DNA of 34,132 nucleotides from a virus. The stretch spans positions 1 through 34,132 of IMG/VR virus record IMGVR_UViG_3300027842_000057, one strand, 5' to 3'. Under the pieces are notes generated by a model that worked only from the letters and a program-made list of their open reading frames with translations, was not told where the DNA came from and ran no database searches. The stretch's first letter is position 1, and each line of letters starts with the position of its first letter. A program made the position numbers and the translations under genes. Shown piece by piece: positions 2,496 through 29,956 of the stretch.

Positions 2496-3047
2496 ATGAC
2501 CGCGCCTCAATGGCACATTGCCTTGACCGAGCCTCGTCGCGAAAGCCTAGCCGCGGCTCATCTTCGCGATCGTGGAATCGAGCCCTATTTGCCGACCCTC
2601 ACGATAGAGGTCGCTCATGGTGGCCATGGTGCACGTCGGGCGGTGCAGCGTCCGATGTTTCCGGGTTATTTGCCGGTCAGGTTCTCGACCGACATGCCAA
2701 AATGGCAGCGGCTCTTTACGACACCGGGAATCCGCCCTGTCCACAGCCTTTTGCGGACGAACGGGCATTATGCGATATTGCCCGAGGCAGCCATTGCGGC
2801 GATCGTAGAAACGGAAAATCGTTTGCGTCATCAACGTGCTATGCCTGCCAAGCGATTAGGATTTCAGGTCGGCCAAACGGTGCAATTCAAGTCGTGGCCT
2901 GATGGCGGGGCATTCTCTGGGTTCTTTGCGGAGGTCGAGCGGCTGGACGATAGCGGCCGAATCAGCCTACTTGTGTCCATCTTCGGTCGGGTTTCCAGGG
3001 CTATCGTTGAATCCGACCTCGTTGCATCCCAGACCGCTACGATGTAG
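2496..3047 (+). CDS. NusG/RfaH-like transcription antitermination protein
   Basis: This 183-residue protein has the two-domain plan of NusG. The N-terminal domain (about 4-115) begins QWHIALTEPRRE and contains the signature MFPGYLPVRF (54-63). The C-terminal KOW-type barrel (about 123-176) has GFQVGQTVQFKSWP and a final strand RVSRAIVESDLV. NusG proteins ride on RNA polymerase, and specialised paralogues such as RfaH suppress termination at chosen operons. It sits four bases after the initiator and immediately before a leader with an intrinsic terminator and the packaging operon. This is the place where lambdoid phages keep Q, so a late-gene switch is a reasonable inference. Confidence 0.8.
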   Translation: MTAPQWHIALTEPRRESLAAAHLRDRGIEPYLPTLTIEVAHGGHGARRAVQRPMFPGYLPVRFSTDMPKWQRLFTTPGIRPVHSLLRTNGHYAILPEAAIAAIVETENRLRHQRAMPAKRLGFQVGQTVQFKSWPDGGAFSGFFAEVERLDDSGRISLLVSIFGRVSRAIVESDLVASQTATM

Positions 3048-17412: not shown

Positions 17413-18174
17413 ATGCCCCCGCCCGCCGAACCTGTCCTCCCGATCGACACCTGTGCGGCGCTTCTAGCGAACATGCTGGTCGATGCCGGCATTGTCGGCA
17501 TTGATGAGGATATCGAACAGCCAGTGCTTAACCGGGCATTCACGCAGATCAACTGGTTGCTGGCCGAATGGGCGCGCAGGCGCTGGCTCTGCTATCGGCT
17601 GCAAGATTATGCGGTGCTCTCGACCGGCGCACAGAGCTATACCGTCGGCCTCAAGCAGAATATCGACATCAATCCGCGACCGGATCGGATCGAGTTCGCT
17701 TATCTGCGCTTTGTGAATCAATCGGCTGGAACGCTTCCGGTCGATATTCCGCTCGACATTATCCAGAGCCAGGAGGATTATTCGCGGATTACCGTGAAGA
17801 CAGTCGGAACGCTGCCCTGGCGGGTGTTCTATGATCCGGTATGGCCGGTTGGCTTGCTCAAGCCGTGGCCGGTGCCGCAGGCCAACATTTATGAGGTGCA
17901 TGTCGGCTTCAAGGTCGTGCTGCCGCGGTTTTCCTCGCTCAATCAACCCATCACGTTTCCGCCGGAATACGAGGCGGCGCTGAACTGGTGCGGTGCACGG
18001 CGATTGCGGGAAAGCTATCAGCTCGAGCCGCGGCCGGTGCTTGATTCGCTCGCCCGGCAATCGCTCAATGCGATGCGGCTCGCGAATCAGGCGATGCCGA
18101 CGTTGCGAATGCCGGCATTTCTGCGCAATCGCCAACGCGCATACGATTACCGAGGGGATTCGGACGGGTTCTGA
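17413..18174 (+). CDS. Head-to-tail adaptor, P22 gp4-like tail accessory factor
   Basis: This 253-residue protein follows the plan of P22-type tail accessory proteins. A helical N-terminus (CAALLANMLVDAGIVGIDED) and AFTQINWLLAEWARRRWLCY lead into a beta region with TGAQSYTVG, DIPLDIIQSQEDYSRITVKT and WRVFYDPVWPVGLLKPWPVP. C-terminal helices follow. Such proteins plug into the portal ring after packaging. Its position just before the gp10-like gene matches P22. P22 gp4 is shorter (166) and also acts as a muramidase; I see no matching active site here. The last 45 bases region is duplicated at 18343-18387. Confidence 0.65.
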   Translation: MPPPAEPVLPIDTCAALLANMLVDAGIVGIDEDIEQPVLNRAFTQINWLLAEWARRRWLCYRLQDYAVLSTGAQSYTVGLKQNIDINPRPDRIEFAYLRFVNQSAGTLPVDIPLDIIQSQEDYSRITVKTVGTLPWRVFYDPVWPVGLLKPWPVPQANIYEVHVGFKVVLPRFSSLNQPITFPPEYEAALNWCGARRLRESYQLEPRPVLDSLARQSLNAMRLANQAMPTLRMPAFLRNRQRAYDYRGDSDGF

Positions 18175-18189
18175 ACAACGGAGATAACC
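18145..18189 (+). repeat. 45-bp direct repeat, copy 1 (end of the gp4-like gene)
   Basis: This copy spans the last codons and stop of the gp4-like gene plus the following ribosome site (GGAG). It recurs 198 bases later at 18343-18387 with a single difference (T18185 against C18383). Confidence 0.9.
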
Positions 18190-18190
18190 G

Positions 18191-18391
18191 ATGCCTGTGA
18201 CGCATTATCCGCGGCCGGGACTCACGACATTGTCGCTGCCACCCGTGCAAGGCATGGGGCGGTATCTCTATGCTGCCTCGAATGGCGCGCTCTATGCCGT
18301 CGTCGCCAATAATATCTATTACATCAATTCCGATTTCGTGTGGATTACCGAGGGGATTCGGACGGGTTCTGAACAACGGAGACAACCATGA
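18191..18391 (+). pseudogene. Fragment of a gp10-like gene (duplication remnant)
   Basis: The first 153 bases (18191-18343) match 18961-19113 inside the gp10-like gene with about eight differences, encoding the same MPVTHYPRPGLTTLS and YAASNGALYAVVANNIYYIN. The fragment lacks the first 38 residues and everything after the DFVW segment. It then runs out of frame through the second copy of the gp4 gene end, giving a 66-residue frame with a good ribosome site. It may be translated but is probably a recombination scar, not a working protein. Confidence 0.7.
18343..18387 (+). repeat. 45-bp direct repeat, copy 2
   Basis: This is the second copy of the gp4-gene end. It now follows the gp10-like fragment and supplies the GGAG ribosome site for the gene at 18388. 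With copy 1 it brackets the gp10-like fragment. Confidence 0.9.
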
Positions 18392-18846
18392 AAACCATCC
18401 TTCACATGCTGGCTGGCGCCCTCATCTGCGCTGCGATCGGCGCGGCTTTTGCGGTGACCGGCACGCCTCCCGGCAACGGCCCGCAGCTCGTCGATGGCCT
18501 CTGGCTCCAGGGCCTCGCGAACGGCGTCAATAATTCTTATCAATCAGGTCTGACTGGGGCCGGCACTACGCAGGCGACGGCAACGGCGTTGCCTGCTGCC
18601 ATTTATATGTTGGAGGCCGATACCGTCGCGGCTTCGACGGGTTTCAACCTGCCTACCGCGCTCGCCGGCGCGGAACTTAGTTTTTATAACAACGGCGCCA
18701 ATACAGCGACCCTTTATCCTGCCGTAGCCAATAATCCAATCACGGCGATACAAGACACGATCAATAATACGACATCAGTCTCAGTCGCTTCGCATGTCGC
18801 GGAATTTTGCTTCGCGGCCAAAAATGGCATATGGGCTTGCAAGTAA
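18388..18846 (+). CDS. Hypothetical protein with signal peptide (152 aa)
   Basis: The start follows GGAG in the duplicated segment. A clear signal peptide (MKTILHMLAGALICAAIGAA, likely cut after FA at residue 22) is followed by a beta-rich domain with QATATALPAAIYMLEADTVA and FYNNGANTATLYPAVANNPI. The latter part resembles the gene product at 20346 (NNGAN, then V/L-[FY]-P-A), so the two probably share a fold. Export of a phage structural-type domain is unusual. The gene seems to have been inserted between gp4-like and gp10-like genes, with the repeats as the trace. Confidence 0.6.
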   Translation: MKTILHMLAGALICAAIGAAFAVTGTPPGNGPQLVDGLWLQGLANGVNNSYQSGLTGAGTTQATATALPAAIYMLEADTVAASTGFNLPTALAGAELSFYNNGANTATLYPAVANNPITAIQDTINNTTSVSVASHVAEFCFAAKNGIWACK

Positions 18847-20349
18847 ATGGTCGCGCTGCCGCTCACCTCGGGGGCGTATAGTTCGCAGTCTTTGATCGCG
18901 GATGCGCAGCGCTCGATCAATCTGTACCCTGAGAAAAATCCCGAGAATACCCGGCCGCCGATGCCGGTCACCCATTATCCGCGGCCGGGACTCACGACAT
19001 TGTCGGCGCCACCCGTGCAAGGCATGGGGCGGTGTCTCTATGCTGCCTCGAATGGCGCGCTCTATGCCGTCGTTGCCAATAATATCTATTACATCAATTC
19101 CGATTTTGTGTGGACGCTGCTCGGTGTGCTTCAGACGCCAGGCAATACACCGGTCATTATGGCCGACAATGGCACGACGATTCTTGCAGTTGATGGCGAC
19201 CAGACTGCCGACCTGATTACGCTCGGGACGAATGCCTTTGCCTTTAACGGCGATCCCAATTTCCTTGGCGCTCGTGGTGTCGATTTTATCGATGGTTTTC
19301 TGGTAATGGATGTTGCCGGAACGAATAAATGGCAATCGACGCTCGCGGAATCGGTTACATTCAATCTGTTATATCAGGGCGTTAAAACTGCCTCACCCGA
19401 TCCGATTCAGCGCGTAATCTGTTGCGAGCGTCAGGTCTATCTTCTCGGGACTCGTAAAAGCGAGCCCTGGGTCAATGTCGGCGCCGTCCCGTTTCCGTTC
19501 AATATTCAGCCCGGCATGATCATCGAGCAAGGTTGCGCCGCGCCCTATTCGGCCTGCAAACAAGATACCAACGTCTATTGGCTCTCGCAGTCGCCGGAAG
19601 GTGCGCGGATGATCATGAAGGTGAATGCTCAAAATGTCGCAGAGCGCATCTCGACACACGCCATCGAAACCGAGTTTCTGAAATATCTACGCGTCGATGA
19701 TTGTTTGTCTGATACCTATCAGATATCGGGGCATAGTTTCATCCGTTTTCACTTTCCGTCCGCCGATAAAACCTGGGTTTATGATCAGGCAACCGGCCAG
19801 TGGTTCGAGGACAATTGGATCGATAACAATGGCGTGCTCCATCGTGCCCGCAATGCGTTCTCGGCCTATGCCTATGGGCTCAATCTCGGGCTCGATTGGG
19901 CAAATGGCGCGCTCTATCAGATCGACCAGCAGGCATTCACCGATGCTGGCCAGCCGATTGTGCACATTCGATCATTTCCGCACATCATCAATGAGTTGAA
20001 ATACGTCAACTATATGGGATTTGTCGCTGATTTCGAAACCGGAACGCTTGCCGGAAGCGATGAAACAACAAAGACCGTGAGCCCATGGTCGCCAGGATTC
20101 AGCAGCGGCTTTGGTCCACTGACAGTGGTCGATACGCCAACCCTGAATCTGCGTTATTCAAACGATGGCGGCTACACTTGGTCAAATAACCGACCTAAAA
20201 AAATGATGAGCGCCGGTCGCTATCGATCAATGATGCGGTGGCGCGGATTAGGCAAAGCGCGCGATCGAGTCTATGAACTCGGCTGGTCGGCGCCGATGAA
20301 GACGGCTCTCCAGGGTGCCTATTATGATGCGCAGCCGGGGGCTTCATGA
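18847..20349 (+). CDS. Packaged DNA stabilisation protein, P22 gp10-like tail hub
   Basis: This 500-residue protein fits P22 gp10 (472) in length and signature. The N-terminus has SGAYSSQSLIADAQRSINLY then PEKNPEN and YPRPGLTTL, a pattern typical of the family. A beta-propeller-like body follows (NGALYAVVANNIYYINSDF, GFLVMDVAGTNKWQST, RQVYLLGTRKSEPW, KTWVYDQATGQWFEDNW). In P22 it forms the hexameric hub beneath gp4 that closes the head and holds the tail needle and tailspikes. It begins right after the previous stop and overlaps the next gene by ATGA. Part of it is duplicated at 18191-18343. Confidence 0.8.
   Translation: MVALPLTSGAYSSQSLIADAQRSINLYPEKNPENTRPPMPVTHYPRPGLTTLSAPPVQGMGRCLYAASNGALYAVVANNIYYINSDFVWTLLGVLQTPGNTPVIMADNGTTILAVDGDQTADLITLGTNAFAFNGDPNFLGARGVDFIDGFLVMDVAGTNKWQSTLAESVTFNLLYQGVKTASPDPIQRVICCERQVYLLGTRKSEPWVNVGAVPFPFNIQPGMIIEQGCAAPYSACKQDTNVYWLSQSPEGARMIMKVNAQNVAERISTHAIETEFLKYLRVDDCLSDTYQISGHSFIRFHFPSADKTWVYDQATGQWFEDNWIDNNGVLHRARNAFSAYAYGLNLGLDWANGALYQIDQQAFTDAGQPIVHIRSFPHIINELKYVNYMGFVADFETGTLAGSDETTKTVSPWSPGFSSGFGPLTVVDTPTLNLRYSNDGGYTWSNNRPKKMMSAGRYRSMMRWRGLGKARDRVYELGWSAPMKTALQGAYYDAQPGAS
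18961..19113 (+). repeat. Source-like copy of the 153-bp gp10 segment
   Basis: This segment inside the intact gp10-like gene is about 95% identical to 18191-18343. The eight or so differences include one amino-acid change S-A-P against S-L-P and C against Y, so the two copies have diverged or came from related phages. Confidence 0.85.
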
Positions 20350-20813
20350 CGGCGCAGGCGTTCTCGCAGAACTTTATCGGTCCCAAGACCCAGATCGTCG
20401 ATCGGGATGGAGCTTTTACTCAGGTTGCGCTCTATCTCGCGCGGGCGCTGTGGCTCCGCACAGGGCAAGGGAACGGCATTATCCCCATCGTTACGGGGTT
20501 TCCGTCATCGCAGAACACGGTTCTACTCGTTGCTGCCGGAAACAGCCAGGCAACCGCACTCGCCTTATCGGATGACTGGAACAATTTCGGGACCGTCGAT
20601 GCCGGAACGAGCTGTCTGCTCCAGGCGCTCAAGCCAGGACAAGATGTGTGGATTTGGAATAACGGGGCGAACAACTTGAATGTGTTTCCGGCGCCGGGAT
20701 ACAACATCGACGCGCTGGCGCCCAACGGGGCGCAGGTGCTTGCTAAAGGCAAGCTGCGGAATTTCCAGTGCTGGACGCAAACCCAGATATTGTCGAGCGC
20801 GATATGGGCATGA
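20346..20813 (+). CDS. Hypothetical virion protein (155 aa)
   Basis: The ATG overlaps the gp10-like stop. The sequence is beta-rich, with AGNSQATALALSDDWNNFGT and DVWIWNNGANNLNVFPAPGY, and a C-terminal strand ending FQCWTQTQILSSAIWA. It shares a domain with the signal-peptide protein at 18388 but has no signal peptide itself. In P22 this position holds the tail needle gp26; the present protein has no long coiled coil and so is not an obvious needle. A tail-tip or decoration protein is a guess. Confidence 0.6.
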   Translation: MTAQAFSQNFIGPKTQIVDRDGAFTQVALYLARALWLRTGQGNGIIPIVTGFPSSQNTVLLVAAGNSQATALALSDDWNNFGTVDAGTSCLLQALKPGQDVWIWNNGANNLNVFPAPGYNIDALAPNGAQVLAKGKLRNFQCWTQTQILSSAIWA

Positions 20814-21502
20814 ATCGCATCGAGCATCTCGCCGACGGCGTGACGCTCTATCTCGGGGATTGCCGGGAGATTCTTCCGGGGCTGGGGCGCGTCGATGCGG
20901 TGGTGACTGATCCGCCTTATGGAATCGGCGAGAACGCAAAGCGCGTCGCGTCTCGCGGCAAACTGGCGGCGCCAGTCGATTATGGGCAATTCGATTGGGA
21001 TCAAGAGCCGATGGACGCAGTTCAACTCGAACTGATCCGCATCAAGAGCCGTCACCAAATCATCTTCGGCGGCAACTATTTTCCGTTGCCGCCGGCCACG
21101 TGCTGGCTGGTGTGGGACAAACTCAACGGTGATAATGATTTTGCGGATTGCGAGCTTGCCTGGACGAATTTGCCGAGAGCGGTGCGCCGCATTCAATGGC
21201 GCTGGAATGGCATGATCCGCGCCGAGTCTGGAACGCGCGAACACCCGACGCAAAAGCCGCGCGAGGTCATGAAATGGTGCATTGAGCATCTGCCGTCCGG
21301 CAGCAAAACCATCCTTGACCCCTTCATGGGCTCCGGCACCACAGGAGTTGCCGCCGTCAAGCTCGGCCGCAAGTTCATCGGCATTGAGATTCATGAACCC
21401 TATTTCGACATCGCCTGCCGCCGCATCTCGGAGGCCCTGCGCCAGCCTGATCTGTTCATCGAGGCCCCGAAGGCCGCCAAGCAAGAGGCGCTTGCGCTAT
21501 GA
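20810..21502 (+). CDS. DNA adenine-N6 methyltransferase (beta-class order)
   Basis: I chose ATG 20810 (230 aa), which overlaps the previous stop and gives a start close to the first strand (GVTLYLGDCREILPGL). Motif IV is DPPYG (34-38), which favours adenine-N6 methylation. The target region follows, then HPTQKP (145-150), motif I DPFMGSGTTG (170-179) and GIEI (191-194). The order IV-target-I marks the beta class. No restriction enzyme is adjacent, so this is an orphan enzyme. It likely protects phage DNA from host restriction or marks it for packaging or regulation. It is wedged into the tail gene cluster, which is not its place in P22. Confidence 0.88.
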   Translation: MNRIEHLADGVTLYLGDCREILPGLGRVDAVVTDPPYGIGENAKRVASRGKLAAPVDYGQFDWDQEPMDAVQLELIRIKSRHQIIFGGNYFPLPPATCWLVWDKLNGDNDFADCELAWTNLPRAVRRIQWRWNGMIRAESGTREHPTQKPREVMKWCIEHLPSGSKTILDPFMGSGTTGVAAVKLGRKFIGIEIHEPYFDIACRRISEALRQPDLFIEAPKAAKQEALAL

Positions 21503-22326: not shown

Positions 22327-23027
22327 TCTCGGGTGGTCTTGGACTTGCCGGCTCGATCGGCTCGGCCTACATCGGATCGAATGCCGCCCGACAAGCGTCA
22401 CAGGCGCAGATCGGCTTTGGCCAGCAGGCTTTGGCACAACTCCAGAGCGCCTTGGGGCCGCTCTTGAGCGCGGGCCGCTCGATTACGGATGCCTCCCTCG
22501 GCCCGTTGACTCGGCTCCTCACACCAGGCCCGGATCAGACGGCAGCTCTTTCACAGCTTCCCGGCTTTCAGTTCGCCCAGGATTGGGGCCAGCGTGCCGT
22601 CGAGAATCTTGGTTCAAGAATGGGCTTTGGCGGCAATACACTTGCGGCCGGAGCGCAGTTTGCGACCGGCACGGCGCAACAGGGATTCGGCAGTCTTGTC
22701 GGGATGTTGCAGAATTTCCTGGGAAGCGGTCTCGGAGCGCAAGCTCACGCTGGGACTGCATTAGGCCAGGGCACGGCGGGTGTGCTGGGTGGCATGGGTA
22801 ATGCGGCGGCCTCGGGCATCCTTGGTTCAGCCAATGCCATCTCAGGCGGCATTACCGGGGGCACCAATGCGCTATCCAACGCGGCGATGATTAATGCCCT
22901 CGGATCGAAGTTGGCAGCCTTGCGCGGCGGCGGTCCCGGTGGCGACGGCATCTATGGAACTCCAAGCGAATTAGGAGCTGGCGGCTTTTCAATGCCGGGA
23001 TTTGATCCGATAGGGTTCGGTGGGTGA
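22308..23027 (+). CDS. DNA transfer / ejection protein, P22 gp7-like
   Basis: This 239-residue protein is rich in glycine, alanine and glutamine. It begins with a glycine-zipper-like hydrophobic segment (LISGGLGLAGSIGSAYIGSN), then NAARQASQAQIGFGQQALAQ, and ends in a glycine-rich, disordered tail. This is the usual appearance of the smallest ejection protein, released from the head with the DNA to help cross the cell envelope. It follows the gp14-like gene as in P22 and overlaps it by 19 bases. P22 gp7 has a similar length (229). Confidence 0.65.
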   Translation: MPTAALISGGLGLAGSIGSAYIGSNAARQASQAQIGFGQQALAQLQSALGPLLSAGRSITDASLGPLTRLLTPGPDQTAALSQLPGFQFAQDWGQRAVENLGSRMGFGGNTLAAGAQFATGTAQQGFGSLVGMLQNFLGSGLGAQAHAGTALGQGTAGVLGGMGNAAASGILGSANAISGGITGGTNALSNAAMINALGSKLAALRGGGPGGDGIYGTPSELGAGGFSMPGFDPIGFGG

Positions 23028-23028
23028 T

Positions 23029-23241
23029 ATGATCCGGCGTCAGTTCTATGGCTGGTTTGACGCGCGCCGTCGTGATTTCAGGCTATCGCTGGCGCCGGCC
23101 GACGCTCCGGTGCGGCCATCGCTCGGATTTGCCACCAAGGCCGAGGCGATTGAGTTCGCGCAACGCAAGCGCGGTAGCATCATGTGGTGGCCAATCTTGA
23201 CGTATGACCAGGAAATGATCGGGCGGGAGATGCACGGATGA
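23029..23241 (+). CDS. Small hypothetical protein (70 aa)
   Basis: The ATG at 23029 lies one base after the previous stop; ATG 23020 in the same frame is an alternative. The product starts MIRRQFYGWFDARRRDFRLS and contains GFATKAEAIEFAQRKRGSIM, a compact beta-helix layout. Its last codons (M-H-G-stop) overlap the next ATG and are part of a duplicated 64-bp segment. Function unknown. Confidence 0.55.
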   Translation: MIRRQFYGWFDARRRDFRLSLAPADAPVRPSLGFATKAEAIEFAQRKRGSIMWWPILTYDQEMIGREMHG

Positions 23242-23294
23242 CTCCCCAAGAAGAATGGAACGCAAAATGGCTGATGTCTATAAGCGAGCTTGAG
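23231..23294 (+). repeat. 64-bp direct repeat, copy 1
   Basis: This copy covers the end of the 70-aa gene and the first 19 codons of the next. It recurs at 23495-23558, 264 bases (88 codons) later, with two differences. The copies bracket an inserted domain in the alpha-CTD-like gene. Confidence 0.9.
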
Positions 23295-23789
23295 TCAAAG
23301 GACGGGACCATGACCGAACTTAAGACCAGCGAATCCCTATTGGCGACCCTACAAAAGGCGTCAAAACGCGTGCTTACTGCCGAGGAACTCAAGAAGCAGC
23401 GCGTCTCCTTCATCATGGGCTCCCTCAAGGAGTCCAGCACAGTCACGCGCGCCCGCATCCAAGAAGTGCTCGCCCGACAGGAGGGGAACGGAGGTGCACG
23501 GATGACTCCCCAAGAAGAATGGGACGCAAAATGGCTGATGTCCATAAGCGAGCTTGAGATATCCATTAGAACTCGCAATTGCTTGCAATATGCAGATGGT
23601 AAATATTTCCATGCTATAAACAACATGTTGCAACTATTGACTACAGGCGAATGCGAGCTATTAAGAATCCCGAATTTTGGTCGTAAAAGTCTTTTAGATT
23701 TGAAAGAAGGTCTTGCAATGAAAGGTTTTTATTTAGGAATGAGCGTTCCGCCCAGGCCTATTGAGCATCATTTCATGGCAACGGGATAA
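23238..23789 (+). CDS. RNA polymerase alpha C-terminal domain-like protein
   Basis: Residues 103-172 of 183 resemble the alpha-CTD of RNA polymerase: ISELEISIRTRNCL, then CELLRIPNFGRKSLLDLKEG and MKGFYLGM. The residues that contact UP-element DNA in E. coli alpha (R265, N268, G296, K298, S299) correspond to R111, N114, G148, K150 and S151, all conserved. There is a loop about six residues longer between them. The N-terminal part holds the duplicated segment MTPQEEWNAKWLMSISELE and an inserted piece (TELKTSESLLATLQ to RIQEVLARQEG) like small phage proteins. The alpha-CTD stretch is clearly AT-richer than its neighbours. It may compete with or recruit host polymerase; that is inference. Confidence 0.75.
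   Translation: MTPQEEWNAKWLMSISELESKDGTMTELKTSESLLATLQKASKRVLTAEELKKQRVSFIMGSLKESSTVTRARIQEVLARQEGNGGARMTPQEEWDAKWLMSISELEISIRTRNCLQYADGKYFHAINNMLQLLTTGECELLRIPNFGRKSLLDLKEGLAMKGFYLGMSVPPRPIEHHFMATG
23495..23558 (+). repeat. 64-bp direct repeat, copy 2
   Basis: This copy is in frame inside the alpha-CTD-like gene and encodes ARMTPQEEWDAKWLMSISELE in part. It keeps the stop region of the upstream small gene as coding sequence. It probably marks the original start of the alpha-CTD gene before the insertion. Confidence 0.9.
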
Positions 23790-25654: not shown

Positions 25655-26407
25655 ATGCGCACCGTCTACATCATCCGCCACGGCCAGACATTGCTCAACA
25701 AGCAGGACAAGATCAGGTCATGGCTGAACATCCCGCTCGATGAGCAGGGCTTTAGCGAGGCGCGCAAGCTTGGTTGGGAACTCAATCGACAGGGAGTCCA
25801 GATCGATGGCCTGTTCTCCTCCGATCTCCTGCGCTCTGAGCAGACCACGATCGAGGTCGCCAAGATGGCGGGCTTCCAGATTCTTGGGACCACCATCGGA
25901 TTGCGTCCTTGGAACGTCGGCAGCCTGTCGGGCACCGATGGGCCTACCGCCCACAAAGTCATGATGGAGCACGCCCGAAATGATCCCGATAAAGTGATCG
26001 GCGGGGATGGCGAATCGTTCAACATCTTCAAATATCGCGTCCTGACTTGCGTCATCGGCTTGCTCAATTCCCATCCGGGGAAGGTGCTCGGGCTTGTCTC
26101 GCATAGCCGCGGCGAGCGGATCATTCATGCCTGGGCAGCTGGCGGCTCCTGTGAATCGCTCGGGATTGATCTCGACGTATTCGGCGAGCGTGGCGAGGCC
26201 ACGGCGAGCGCATCGCGGGTCGAGATCAAATGTTCGCTGGTCGTGGGGGGCGACGACGGGCCTTCGACTGCGAATAACGATCAGGAACAGCCGCCCATGG
26301 CCGGTGCCCGCAAGAGTGCGCTCGATGGTCAATGGTATGTGAACGATCAGTCCCGTCCAGGCAAGTATCTCCGTGTAAGGCGAGGCCAAGGCCGTGCCGC
26401 CGCCTGA
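25655..26407 (+). CDS. Histidine phosphatase (phosphoglycerate mutase-like) with C-terminal virion-type tail
   Basis: The fold and active site are clear: RHG at 8-10 (YIIRHGQTLLN), R60 in SSDLLRSEQT, RPWNVGSLSG (84-93), GESF (119-122) and the second catalytic histidine H150 in GLVSHSRGER. The enzyme would use a phospho-histidine intermediate; the substrate is unknown. After the domain (about 200) comes a linker and a short segment DGQWYVNDQSRPGKYLRVRR. Its DG-x-Y-x-x-P-x-x-P-G-K-Y pattern recalls short repeats in other phage virion proteins. The ribosome site is AAGGCG. It lies between gp20-like and ART-like genes, so it may be carried in the virion. Confidence 0.85.
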   Translation: MRTVYIIRHGQTLLNKQDKIRSWLNIPLDEQGFSEARKLGWELNRQGVQIDGLFSSDLLRSEQTTIEVAKMAGFQILGTTIGLRPWNVGSLSGTDGPTAHKVMMEHARNDPDKVIGGDGESFNIFKYRVLTCVIGLLNSHPGKVLGLVSHSRGERIIHAWAAGGSCESLGIDLDVFGERGEATASASRVEIKCSLVVGGDDGPSTANNDQEQPPMAGARKSALDGQWYVNDQSRPGKYLRVRRGQGRAAA

Positions 26408-27641
26408 CGATCTCTCCCTTGAGCCGGTGGATCATGATCCGTTCCCTGGCCAGCCATCGCCATCTGACGTGCAATCGATGACGCATCAAGCCATAGGGCC
26501 TAATCCGGCAAAGCCGATCCTCGATGCCCTGCGGGCCTTCATGACGGGAGGTCTGCAAGGCATGGCCAATGTTCAAGGCATGAACACGCCGGAATGGTCG
26601 CAACGGCTGGGTTCGATCTTGACAAGCCCGGAGGCGAATGCGGCGCTGGGGGTCATGTCGCCAGTCGGCACCAAAGGCATCACCGCCTTCCATGGCTCCC
26701 CCCATGATTTTGACGCCTTCGACATCTCCCAGATCGGAACGGGAGAAGGCGCACAAGCTTATGGGCATGGGCTGTATTTCGCGGAGAATGAGGGCGTGGC
26801 GCAAAGTTATAGGAGTAAGTTGTCCGACAACAGTTTTCGAATACAGTCACCTGATGGTGATAGTTTTGGTCACAAAGAATTGGCAGACGCTGTGCGCATG
26901 GAAACCAATCCAGAGCTAGCTGATGATGCCCGCGAAGGATGGGATTGGGCATTTCGCAATTTTGCTGAACAGAACGGTAAATTTAATACTCATCCTGGAA
27001 AAAGTGCCGAATTCCACCAAGGTTATGACTCTGCAAAGGGTCTTCTTCAGGAGCATGGATTTGCGCCGGTTGAGCCCGGCCGCATGTACCAAGTCTCCAT
27101 TAACGCCGATCCCGAGCATTTCCTGGATTGGGACAAGCCATTGAGCGAGCAGAGTCCGAAGGTGCAGGAGGCGTTGCGTCCGGTCATAAATCAACTTGAA
27201 CCTGGAGCCGGAGAGGGAAATTTGCCGAAAAGCGTTTCTGGTGATTCGTGGTTGCAATTCGCTGAAAACAAGCTTGGACGAGAAGGTGTGTCTAAATCAT
27301 TGAAAGAAGCCGGCATCCCCGGCATCAAGTATCTGGATCAAGGATCACGGAACGTTGGCTTAACCTTTGAGGTTGCCAGCAATCCAAACGGCAGCTTTGA
27401 TTTGATAAAACATCGCCTCGGTACGGAGAATGTCATAGGAAATTATGAGACGCGCGAAGCTGCAAACGCTGCTCGTGACGCGCAGATTCCACAAGAAACC
27501 CACAACTACGTCGTCTTCGATGACAAGCTTATCGACATCATGAAGAAATATGGCATCGCGGGAATAGGCGCCCTTCCCGCAATGGGCGCCTATCATTTCC
27601 AGACCGATTCCGTTGATCACGATCCCTTCTCAGGTCAATGA
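26394..27641 (+). CDS. ADP-ribosyltransferase-like protein (ART-PolyVal type)
   Basis: The start is GTG 26394, overlapping the phosphatase by 14 bases. From about residue 96 the sequence follows the ADP-ribosyltransferase domain known from phage polyvalent proteins: ITAFHGSPHDFDAFD (H100), then YGHGLYFAENEGVAQSYR (Y128), a long insert, GIPGIKYLDQGSRN (307-320) and HNYVVFDDKLIDIM (370-383). The first two match the H and Y positions of the H-Y-E type. The insert (about 142-260) is AT-richer than its surroundings. Both ends carry VDHDPF-x-GQ (12-20 and the last nine residues). It might modify host proteins on entry; target unknown. Confidence 0.7.
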   Translation: MPPPDDLSLEPVDHDPFPGQPSPSDVQSMTHQAIGPNPAKPILDALRAFMTGGLQGMANVQGMNTPEWSQRLGSILTSPEANAALGVMSPVGTKGITAFHGSPHDFDAFDISQIGTGEGAQAYGHGLYFAENEGVAQSYRSKLSDNSFRIQSPDGDSFGHKELADAVRMETNPELADDAREGWDWAFRNFAEQNGKFNTHPGKSAEFHQGYDSAKGLLQEHGFAPVEPGRMYQVSINADPEHFLDWDKPLSEQSPKVQEALRPVINQLEPGAGEGNLPKSVSGDSWLQFAENKLGREGVSKSLKEAGIPGIKYLDQGSRNVGLTFEVASNPNGSFDLIKHRLGTENVIGNYETREAANAARDAQIPQETHNYVVFDDKLIDIMKKYGIAGIGALPAMGAYHFQTDSVDHDPFSGQ

Positions 27642-29956
27642 CCATGCCCGATCCCTCCGATGTAATCCCGACCATCACGAATGCTTGGCGCGATGCCGGC
27701 ATGCCGGATCGAGGCATTGCGGGCGTGCTGTTCAATATCAAAGAAGAGTCCGGCTTTGATCCCACGCAACGAGTTTTCGATCAACGAGCTTGGACTGCGC
27801 GTCACGGCCTCGGCGAGCCATCCTATGCTCATGGGCTTTACCAGGAGGGTGCGGACGAGTGGCAGCGCTATCAATCCTTCCTCGCTGGCCGTCAAGGCGC
27901 GGATTGGCGTGATCCCGAACTGCAAAGCCAGTTCGCGGCCTGGAACCTGAAAAACAACTATCCCTCGACTTGGGCAAAGATGGTCAATGCCAAGTCGCCC
28001 GAACAGGCGGCGGCGGTCTATGCCAATGAGTATTTGAAACCATCTGCGCCCAATCTCGCCAGCCGCATGAACAAGATTTTCGGCGGGGTTCCAAAGATGT
28101 CCGCCTATGATGCGGCGCCCCCCGAGGATTTGCTAGGAAAATGGCTGGCGGCGCCAACTGGCAATCAACCGGCCGCGCCTCAACCGGGAATCGCGGCATC
28201 CGAACCCGCTTCGCCGCCCGAAGATTTGTTAAGTTCATGGAAAGTACCGGAATCGCCAGCCGCCCCCTCGATGCAGACTGCCGCGCCAGCCGCGCCGCAA
28301 GGCGCTCCATCGGCCGTTTCATCTCCCGCCATCTCACAGCCTTCCGGTCCCGAAACCGCACCCCAGGCTCTTACGCGGCTTATGGCAGAGCATCAAGGTG
28401 ACACCTGGACCGATCGATCGATTGCCGCGGCCGCTGGCGTTGGCCGTGGTCTCGGCAATGTCGGGGATACGATCGCGCAGGGAATTACCGCCTTGGGCGA
28501 TAATGCCGCAAAGGCGCTGGCGCGATATGGCGCGATTTCCCCGGAAAGTGCCAAGGCAGTTGAGGACTGGCGGACATCGGTAAATCAAGGCATCGATCAG
28601 GATCAGGCTGCGTTTCAGACGGCCGCCAAGGGAAGCTTGTCGGCGGCGTTCGGTCAGGTCGGTGGTGAGATTGCAGGAACGGGGCCATTTCTTGGTATTG
28701 GCGCCGCAGCTCTGCGTGGGACGCCACTTGCGGCGACACTTGCGGCGCGACCGATCGTCGGATCGATTGTCAAGGGTGCCGCAACTGGAGCCGGAACAAC
28801 GGCGCTGACATCGGCTGCATCCGACATGCCACTTGGCGAACAATTGGCTGCTGGGGGCGGTGCCGGTGCAGTTCTTGGGCCGCTGGGACATGCTGCGACC
28901 CGTGCATTGGGCGCGGGAGTCAACCCAGAAGTCGGGCGGCTGGCAGGTCTTGCCATTGACAAATACGGCATCCCGCTCCGCGCCGATCAATTGTCAACGA
29001 ATCCCATGGTGCGCTTCCTTGGTTCGGTATTGCAGCGCCTTCCATTGACGGGGCTTAATCCGGCCGAGCAGCAGGCGACATTTTCGCGGGCGATCGCCCA
29101 TGAAATGGGTGAAGTGTCCGATAATGTGACGATGCCGGTTCTGCAGGCCGTCAAGACCCGCACGGGCCAGATGTTTGACGATGTTGCCAATCGCACCGGG
29201 CCGATCCGCATCGATCATGCATTTGCGGCAGACGTTGGAAACGTCTTGAGCGATGCCCGGACTGTTTTGGGCGATGAGGCCAAGCCGATTGAAAATCTGA
29301 TTCAGAAAATCGGCAGCCGCATCGATCCGGCGACCGGCACGATCAGCCCGAAGGCGTATCAAGCAACGATCGCCCATGGGAGCGCGCTTGATCGCGCAAT
29401 GGAATCGAATAATTCCAATGTCGGTTTCTATTCGGGAAAACTACGCGATGCACTCGACGACATGATGCAGCGCACGGCGCCGGCTGATGCGGTGGCTGAT
29501 TTGAAGACTGCCCGTTACCAATATGCCATCATGAAAGCAGTTGAGCCACTGGCCAAAGAATCGCCGACTGGGGATATCAGCCCGGCCAAGCTGTTGAGTA
29601 AGGCGACCGGCGGCAATCTCATGGAATTGGGCCAGATCGGCAAACAATTCCTGCGTGAGCCGCCCAGCTCGGGAACTGCGGAGCGTTCATTGCTTTTAGG
29701 AGCGTTAAGTGCGGGACTCGGAACCGATTATGCGTTCGATCCCGAGGGCTTCCAGAGGCATGCTTTAATGGCTGCGGCTGGACTGGGGGCGGCGCGCGCG
29801 GGTGGCGCGCTAATCAAATTGCCGGCCCTGACGAGATTCCTTGCGCGGCGGGGGCAGCAACAGCAAGGGAGTCTGTTGAGTAATATAATTCCGGCTGCGG
29901 GAGCCTTGGCGACCCGCAATATCGGAACTGCGTTTTCGGCGCCGCAAGGCCCTTAG
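27638..29956 (+). CDS. Large ejection protein with N-terminal tail-lysozyme domain (P22 gp16 position)
   Basis: The start overlaps the previous stop (ATGA). Residues about 8-145 resemble the phage tail lysozyme domain: IPTITNAWRDAGMPDRGIAG, LFNIKEESGFDPTQ with the likely catalytic glutamate in KEESGF, then YAHGLYQEGADEWQRYQSFL and LQSQFAAWNLKNNYPSTW. It would cut peptidoglycan during entry. A disordered linker (about 150-250) follows, then glycine/alanine-rich hydrophobic segments (about 340-440) that could enter the membrane, and a helical end. P22 gp16 (609) has the same place and ejection role. The 772-residue size fits a fusion of gp16-like and lysozyme parts. Confidence 0.75.
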   Translation: MTMPDPSDVIPTITNAWRDAGMPDRGIAGVLFNIKEESGFDPTQRVFDQRAWTARHGLGEPSYAHGLYQEGADEWQRYQSFLAGRQGADWRDPELQSQFAAWNLKNNYPSTWAKMVNAKSPEQAAAVYANEYLKPSAPNLASRMNKIFGGVPKMSAYDAAPPEDLLGKWLAAPTGNQPAAPQPGIAASEPASPPEDLLSSWKVPESPAAPSMQTAAPAAPQGAPSAVSSPAISQPSGPETAPQALTRLMAEHQGDTWTDRSIAAAAGVGRGLGNVGDTIAQGITALGDNAAKALARYGAISPESAKAVEDWRTSVNQGIDQDQAAFQTAAKGSLSAAFGQVGGEIAGTGPFLGIGAAALRGTPLAATLAARPIVGSIVKGAATGAGTTALTSAASDMPLGEQLAAGGGAGAVLGPLGHAATRALGAGVNPEVGRLAGLAIDKYGIPLRADQLSTNPMVRFLGSVLQRLPLTGLNPAEQQATFSRAIAHEMGEVSDNVTMPVLQAVKTRTGQMFDDVANRTGPIRIDHAFAADVGNVLSDARTVLGDEAKPIENLIQKIGSRIDPATGTISPKAYQATIAHGSALDRAMESNNSNVGFYSGKLRDALDDMMQRTAPADAVADLKTARYQYAIMKAVEPLAKESPTGDISPAKLLSKATGGNLMELGQIGKQFLREPPSSGTAERSLLLGALSAGLGTDYAFDPEGFQRHALMAAAGLGAARAGGALIKLPALTRFLARRGQQQQGSLLSNIIPAAGALATRNIGTAFSAPQGP

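Follow-up and report, generated by a model that had tools for sequence, protein, structure and literature searches.

Phage T4 Alt and ModA ADP-ribosylate Arg265 of the alpha subunit of RNA polymerase (PMC2988021), and alpha is cleaved through the action of Rac (PMC7552054). In isolated form, the C-terminal domain of alpha (alpha-CTD) shifts AT-rich promoter DNA in gels, and the activator Spx does not engage the DNA-bound form (PMC2801614). Alpha-CTD itself is a well-known domain, and individual phage genes for it have been annotated before, one of them in Erythrobacter phage vB_EliS-L02 (PMC9127768). Free-CTD genes are also carried by the isolates CcrColossus, Goe8 and Ruegeria V16. In Goe8 (L236, 1959–2591) the gene is annotated 'RNA polymerase subunit alpha' and lies near the genome end; the record has two matches to it, as though it were within a terminal repeat. 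A literature search that was thin on subscription journals found no work on the function of a free alpha-CTD from a phage, so that this absence is weak evidence.

Organization of the locus

The gene described here lies in a 34,132-base virus record whose portal, head-closure and ejection genes are P22-like; the record was analysed over its whole length (the window) and likely belongs to a phage of an alphaproteobacterium. The following features are relevant:

2496–3047, plus strand: NusG-like transcription antiterminator (phrog_6386, 8.3e-16; NusG, 3.8e-9)
23020–23241, plus strand: upstream ORF of 73 aa, no family, overlapping the start of the next ORF
23226–23294, plus strand: direct repeat, copy 1 (69 nt, 96% identical to copy 2), covering the last bases of the upstream ORF together with the CTD leader
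23238–23789, plus strand: ORF of 183 aa encoding the alpha-CTD, its start overlapping the upstream stop codon (ATGA)
23310–23501, plus strand: small segment between the repeats (MTELK...) with its own ATG, unrelated to alpha, no Pfam family
23490–23558, plus strand: direct repeat, copy 2 (69 nt, 96% identical to copy 1), running into the CTD
23502–23789, plus strand: the alpha-CTD itself (95 aa), starting at an internal ATG preceded by a GGAGG Shine-Dalgarno sequence
26394–27641, plus strand: probable ART-PolyVal protein, a weak match (Pfam PF18760, 1.5e-5, 26.2 bits, below the cut-off of 31.2)
27638–29956, plus strand: phage tail lysozyme and DNA ejection protein (family matches)

The immediate neighbours of ORF 23238–23789 matched no family, and no promoter or terminator candidates were found near it on the plus strand. 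The preliminary description had assigned the gene to an ejection module, which holds in part: ART-like (sub-threshold) and lysozyme/ejection genes follow downstream, but the adjoining genes lack a family. A DNA methyltransferase gene (20768–21502) is situated inside the structural region, between the head-closure and the ejection genes.

The two copies of the 69-nt repeat duplicate the leader peptide MTPQEEWxAKWLMSISELE and enclose the unrelated segment 23310–23501, which resembles the tail of a 1,232-aa ORF in the prophage locus L136, part of a bacterial assembly (42% identity across 55 aa, E 1e-7, small local search). Residues 1–88 are thus a recombinant front. Shine-Dalgarno-like sites are present at three starts including the internal one at 23502, which has the strongest duplex energy among the 14 starts tested (-10.8 kcal/mol). 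To judge from this start site, the CTD probably functions as the free 95-aa protein, made by itself or beside the longer form. A comparable arrangement is seen at 18145–19114, where a stretch of 157 nt copied from the head-closure gene (18188–18344, 95% to 18958–19114) is flanked by 45–49-nt repeats (96%) resembling the repeat in the CTD gene. Such diverged repeats (95–96%) suggest that strains differing by about 5% have recombined or been mis-assembled, and this possible event touches the front half of the ORF, whereas the CTD itself is unaffected.

Identity and origin of the domain

Residues 97–159 of ORF 23238–23789 match the Pfam family RNA_pol_A_CTD (PF03118) with E=1.4e-11 and 44.3 bits, and the value is slightly better (3.9e-12) for the 95 aa that start at ATG 23502; the profile scores of 44.3–46.1 bits lie well above the curated cut-off of 23.8. 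All 40 PDB sequence matches of the protein are RNA polymerase alpha subunits, the best with 9.8e-13 and the E. coli alpha-CTD with 4.7e-10. Among the PHROG families none matched the protein. In the PDB alignment Arg111, Asn114, Gly148, Lys150 and Ser151 pair with Arg265, Asn268, Gly296, Lys298 and Ser299 of E. coli, and Glu107, Glu105, Cys115 and Asp154 correspond to Glu261, Asp259, Cys269 and Glu302, the E. coli numbers being those we take to apply to the aligned positions. The 95 aa from the internal start are modelled confidently by AlphaFold2 (mean pLDDT 89.6). The closest fold is that of 9zum, Caulobacter alpha-CTD in complex with AT-rich DNA (45% identity, Foldseek E 4e-7), and the top matches likewise include complexes of the E. 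coli alpha-CTD (VIA Z 11–12). In the model of the full ORF the front half forms a long helix of moderate confidence.

The preliminary description had read the C-terminal part of the protein as an alpha-CTD with all five UP-element contact residues conserved, and had named a profile search and a structure prediction as checks; both agree with this reading, and the five residues pair exactly as named. A better match to another helix-hairpin-helix family, which would have spoken against it, was not encountered, no such family (HHH_5 etc.) being reported for the protein up to E=1. The alpha-CTD assignment is correct, far beyond chance, and it is well supported by alignment and model that the ORF ends in a genuine alpha-CTD with an intact predicted DNA-binding surface. 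The 183-aa ORF does not match the N-terminal dimerisation/assembly domain of RpoA, and the protein is therefore not a polymerase subunit.

The CTD part has a GC content of 40% (38% after the repeat, GC3 34%) compared with about 58–60% in the surroundings, confirming the earlier remark that the segment is AT-richer than its neighbours. On average, phage CTD genes have 5 points less GC than their own contigs; at 17 points the window copy is extreme, its offset of -0.17 being the lowest among 70 phage CTD genes (mean -0.05, sd 0.04). The suggestion of capture can be upheld only for its source: GC3 makes acquisition from a foreign AT-rich source plausible, but the tree gives no indication of recent direct capture of a host rpoA. 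In this tree, which comprises only 75 columns and is mostly weakly resolved, the window groups with the phage contigs L125 and L206 (98/86), beside but outside the rpoA rows. Recent direct host capture was rejected on this placement with phage CTDs and on an identity of about 36–45% to solved alpha-CTDs. Among 190 alphaproteobacterial genomes PF03118 was found in 182, nearly always as one match and in a handful as two. The relative L002 groups with L111 and L122, and the relative L003 is placed elsewhere; this scatter suggests separate CTD acquisitions within one phage group.

The strong GC3 offset, the 69-nt repeat with its 4% divergence and two further diverged repeats of this type in the contig would also fit a functionless recent passenger or recombination product, the 183-aa frame being in part an assembly joint between strains. 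We regard this as one of the less likely explanations, and as improbable, since the frame and the key residues are intact behind a strong start site, CTD genes are kept in the same region of related phages, and CTDs of other phage families are under purifying selection.

Recurrence and conservation among phages

A first alignment-based scan of viral contigs yielded 46 CTD loci, and a second one 124 confirmed relatives, of which 80 were kept. When a single sequence (the window ORF, its CTD part or the front segment) was used to scan viral contigs, no match was obtained; alignment queries succeeded. At the inspected loci the CTD is encoded in ORFs of about 50–275 aa, some of them cut by contig ends, and no full-length RpoA was found among the viral loci whose frame was inspected. 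Free alpha-CTDs have probably been acquired several times by phages.

In an alignment of 69 phage CTDs with rpoA rows, positions 265, 296 and 299 are invariant as Arg, Gly and Ser. Lys298 is retained in 65, Glu302 in 66, Pro293 and Asn294 in 67 each, and Asn268 in 52 of the 69. Because the PNFGRKSL stretch served as search pattern, its conservation is partly built in; Arg265 lies outside the pattern. Position 261, a sigma contact, is Glu or Asp in 56 phage CTDs, and positions 287 (CRP contact) and 317 are variable. Codon comparisons within four phage CTD families gave dN/dS values of 0.07–0.6 where computable; these figures come from other phage families, as no close relative of the window CTD was found. 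As far as alignments can tell, this conservation agrees with the proposed roles, namely stealing activators, occupying UP elements or attracting polymerase to phage promoters.

The conserved residues are DNA contacts, and in the window, L002 and L003 the gene is located among structural or ejection genes. The protein could thus be a general module for binding AT-rich DNA, for instance an accessory protein of the virion or of ejection, with no role in transcription. We consider this reading less likely, and quite unlikely in itself, in view of the acidic residue kept at the sigma contact and of the genomic positions of the relatives. The position of the gene is what speaks for the suggestion in the preliminary description that the protein might enter with the DNA. 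In many other phages the CTD gene lies outside structural modules, and genes for DNA polymerase, helicase, primosomal or recombination functions, or portal/terminase genes, are found nearby. The proximity to replication-type genes argues that a virion role is not general. In addition, fusions of the CTD with helix-turn-helix (HTH) domains suggest regulation: L206 890–1636 (HTH_23, 2.3e-5) and L224 7812–8429 (Mor-like, 7.6e-4), with weaker cases in L098 4683–5195 and L188 7797–8615.

A further fusion partner is a small, common phage domain without Pfam family ('LRDYFAAKAM...YxxADAMLKAR'). It is N-terminal to the alpha-CTD in the L094–L130 group and C-terminal to it in L176 4186–4629 and L199 701–1222, and stand-alone copies occur in the same contigs as the fusions. 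Its fusion to alpha-CTD links this domain to transcription.

The ART-like gene at 26394–27641 is also common to L002 and L003. Among 50 viral records sharing it, a CTD ORF is present in the corresponding region of these two, which are its best relatives. For injected polyvalent proteins with ART domains an action like that of T4 Alt has been proposed (PMC7824862), and the CTD could accordingly be a decoy, substrate or partner of the ART-like ejection protein, which might modify an alpha-CTD arginine as Alt does. However, the other 48 ART relatives, many of them fragments, have no CTD match, no ART homologue clusters in the flanks of other CTD contigs, and the ART match itself is below the Pfam cut-off. 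Also among the less likely explanations, this one appears most improbable.

A CTD gene and a NusG-like gene occur together in the window, L002, L003, L087, L111 and L120, separated by about 0.4 kb in L087, and a NusG-like gene is present in 6 of 24 CTD-negative relatives. The NusA-AR2 domain of gamma-proteobacteria binds both alpha-CTD and the N-terminal domain of NusG (PMC7171158). For this reason the main rival explanation is antitermination or recruitment: the CTD would bind host NusA or work with the phage NusG-like protein and help late transcription past terminators, or act as an extra CTD at phage promoters. The co-occurrence, on which the NusG-like protein of the window can be named as a possible functional partner, is only suggestive, the sample being small and confounded by lineage. 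In most of the other CTD contigs no NusG-like gene lies within the stretch examined, and descriptions of NusA AR domains concern gamma-proteobacteria, whereas the host is likely an alphaproteobacterium. Taken together, we judge this explanation unlikely.

Proposed competition with host polymerase and relation to known systems

The explanation that we favour, giving it about an even chance, is that a free CTD competes at UP elements and activators with the CTDs belonging to the polymerase. The gene would produce a free alpha-CTD, as the 183-aa protein or, more likely, mainly as the 95-aa protein from the internal start. Untethered to polymerase, this domain would bind upstream DNA rich in AT, and possibly also activators or region 4 of sigma, opposing the two CTDs of the polymerase at UP elements and activator sites, so that UP- or activator-dependent host transcription would fall and phage genes would be favoured. 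Competition is preferred because the domain, its fold and its DNA-contact residues are intact, because Arg265, Gly296 and Ser299 are invariant among phage CTDs while the CRP-contact position varies, and because related phage families evolve at dN/dS values of 0.07–0.6 and some CTDs are fused to HTH domains. Moreover, isolated alpha-CTD binds AT-rich DNA, and phages attack alpha by other means. On the other hand, the gene lies among late genes, where host shut-off might come too late; phage CTDs are found in many different modules, so that a single common role is not shown; and the kept surface around position 265 would also fit NusA binding.

Free phage CTDs point to a little-studied interference with host transcription. 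Somewhat more tentatively, at a little short of an even chance, they may form a widespread and repeatedly acquired class of phage transcription takeover, unrecognised as such, which acts through an intact minor-groove surface and has several times become part of phage regulators through fusion with HTH domains. The dozens of phage CTDs constitute a panel to distinguish competitor, recruiter and antitermination part, their natural variation separating the DNA, sigma and activator surfaces.

Comparison with the bacterial RpoA C-terminal domain (PF03118; Caulobacter 9zum, E. coli 3n97/1lb2) reveals the same fold, length and DNA-contact residues, with 45% identity to the Caulobacter CTD. In contrast to RpoA, the window protein lacks the N-terminal assembly domain and has roughly six residues inserted behind helix 1. 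The annotated phage alpha-CTDs, CcrColossus gp133, Bacillus phage Goe8 c00050, vB_EliS-L02 ORF 40 and Ruegeria phage V16 gp23, share with it an alpha-CTD outside RpoA in a phage genome and differ in their extensions and genome positions. In T4 (Alt/ModA), phiKMV-like phages (Rac) and Mu (Mor) the alpha subunit is likewise the point of attack. However, these proteins modify, cleave or contact alpha, whereas the window gene supplies a copy of the CTD; to provide it in free form would be a strategy distinct from the known phage routes.
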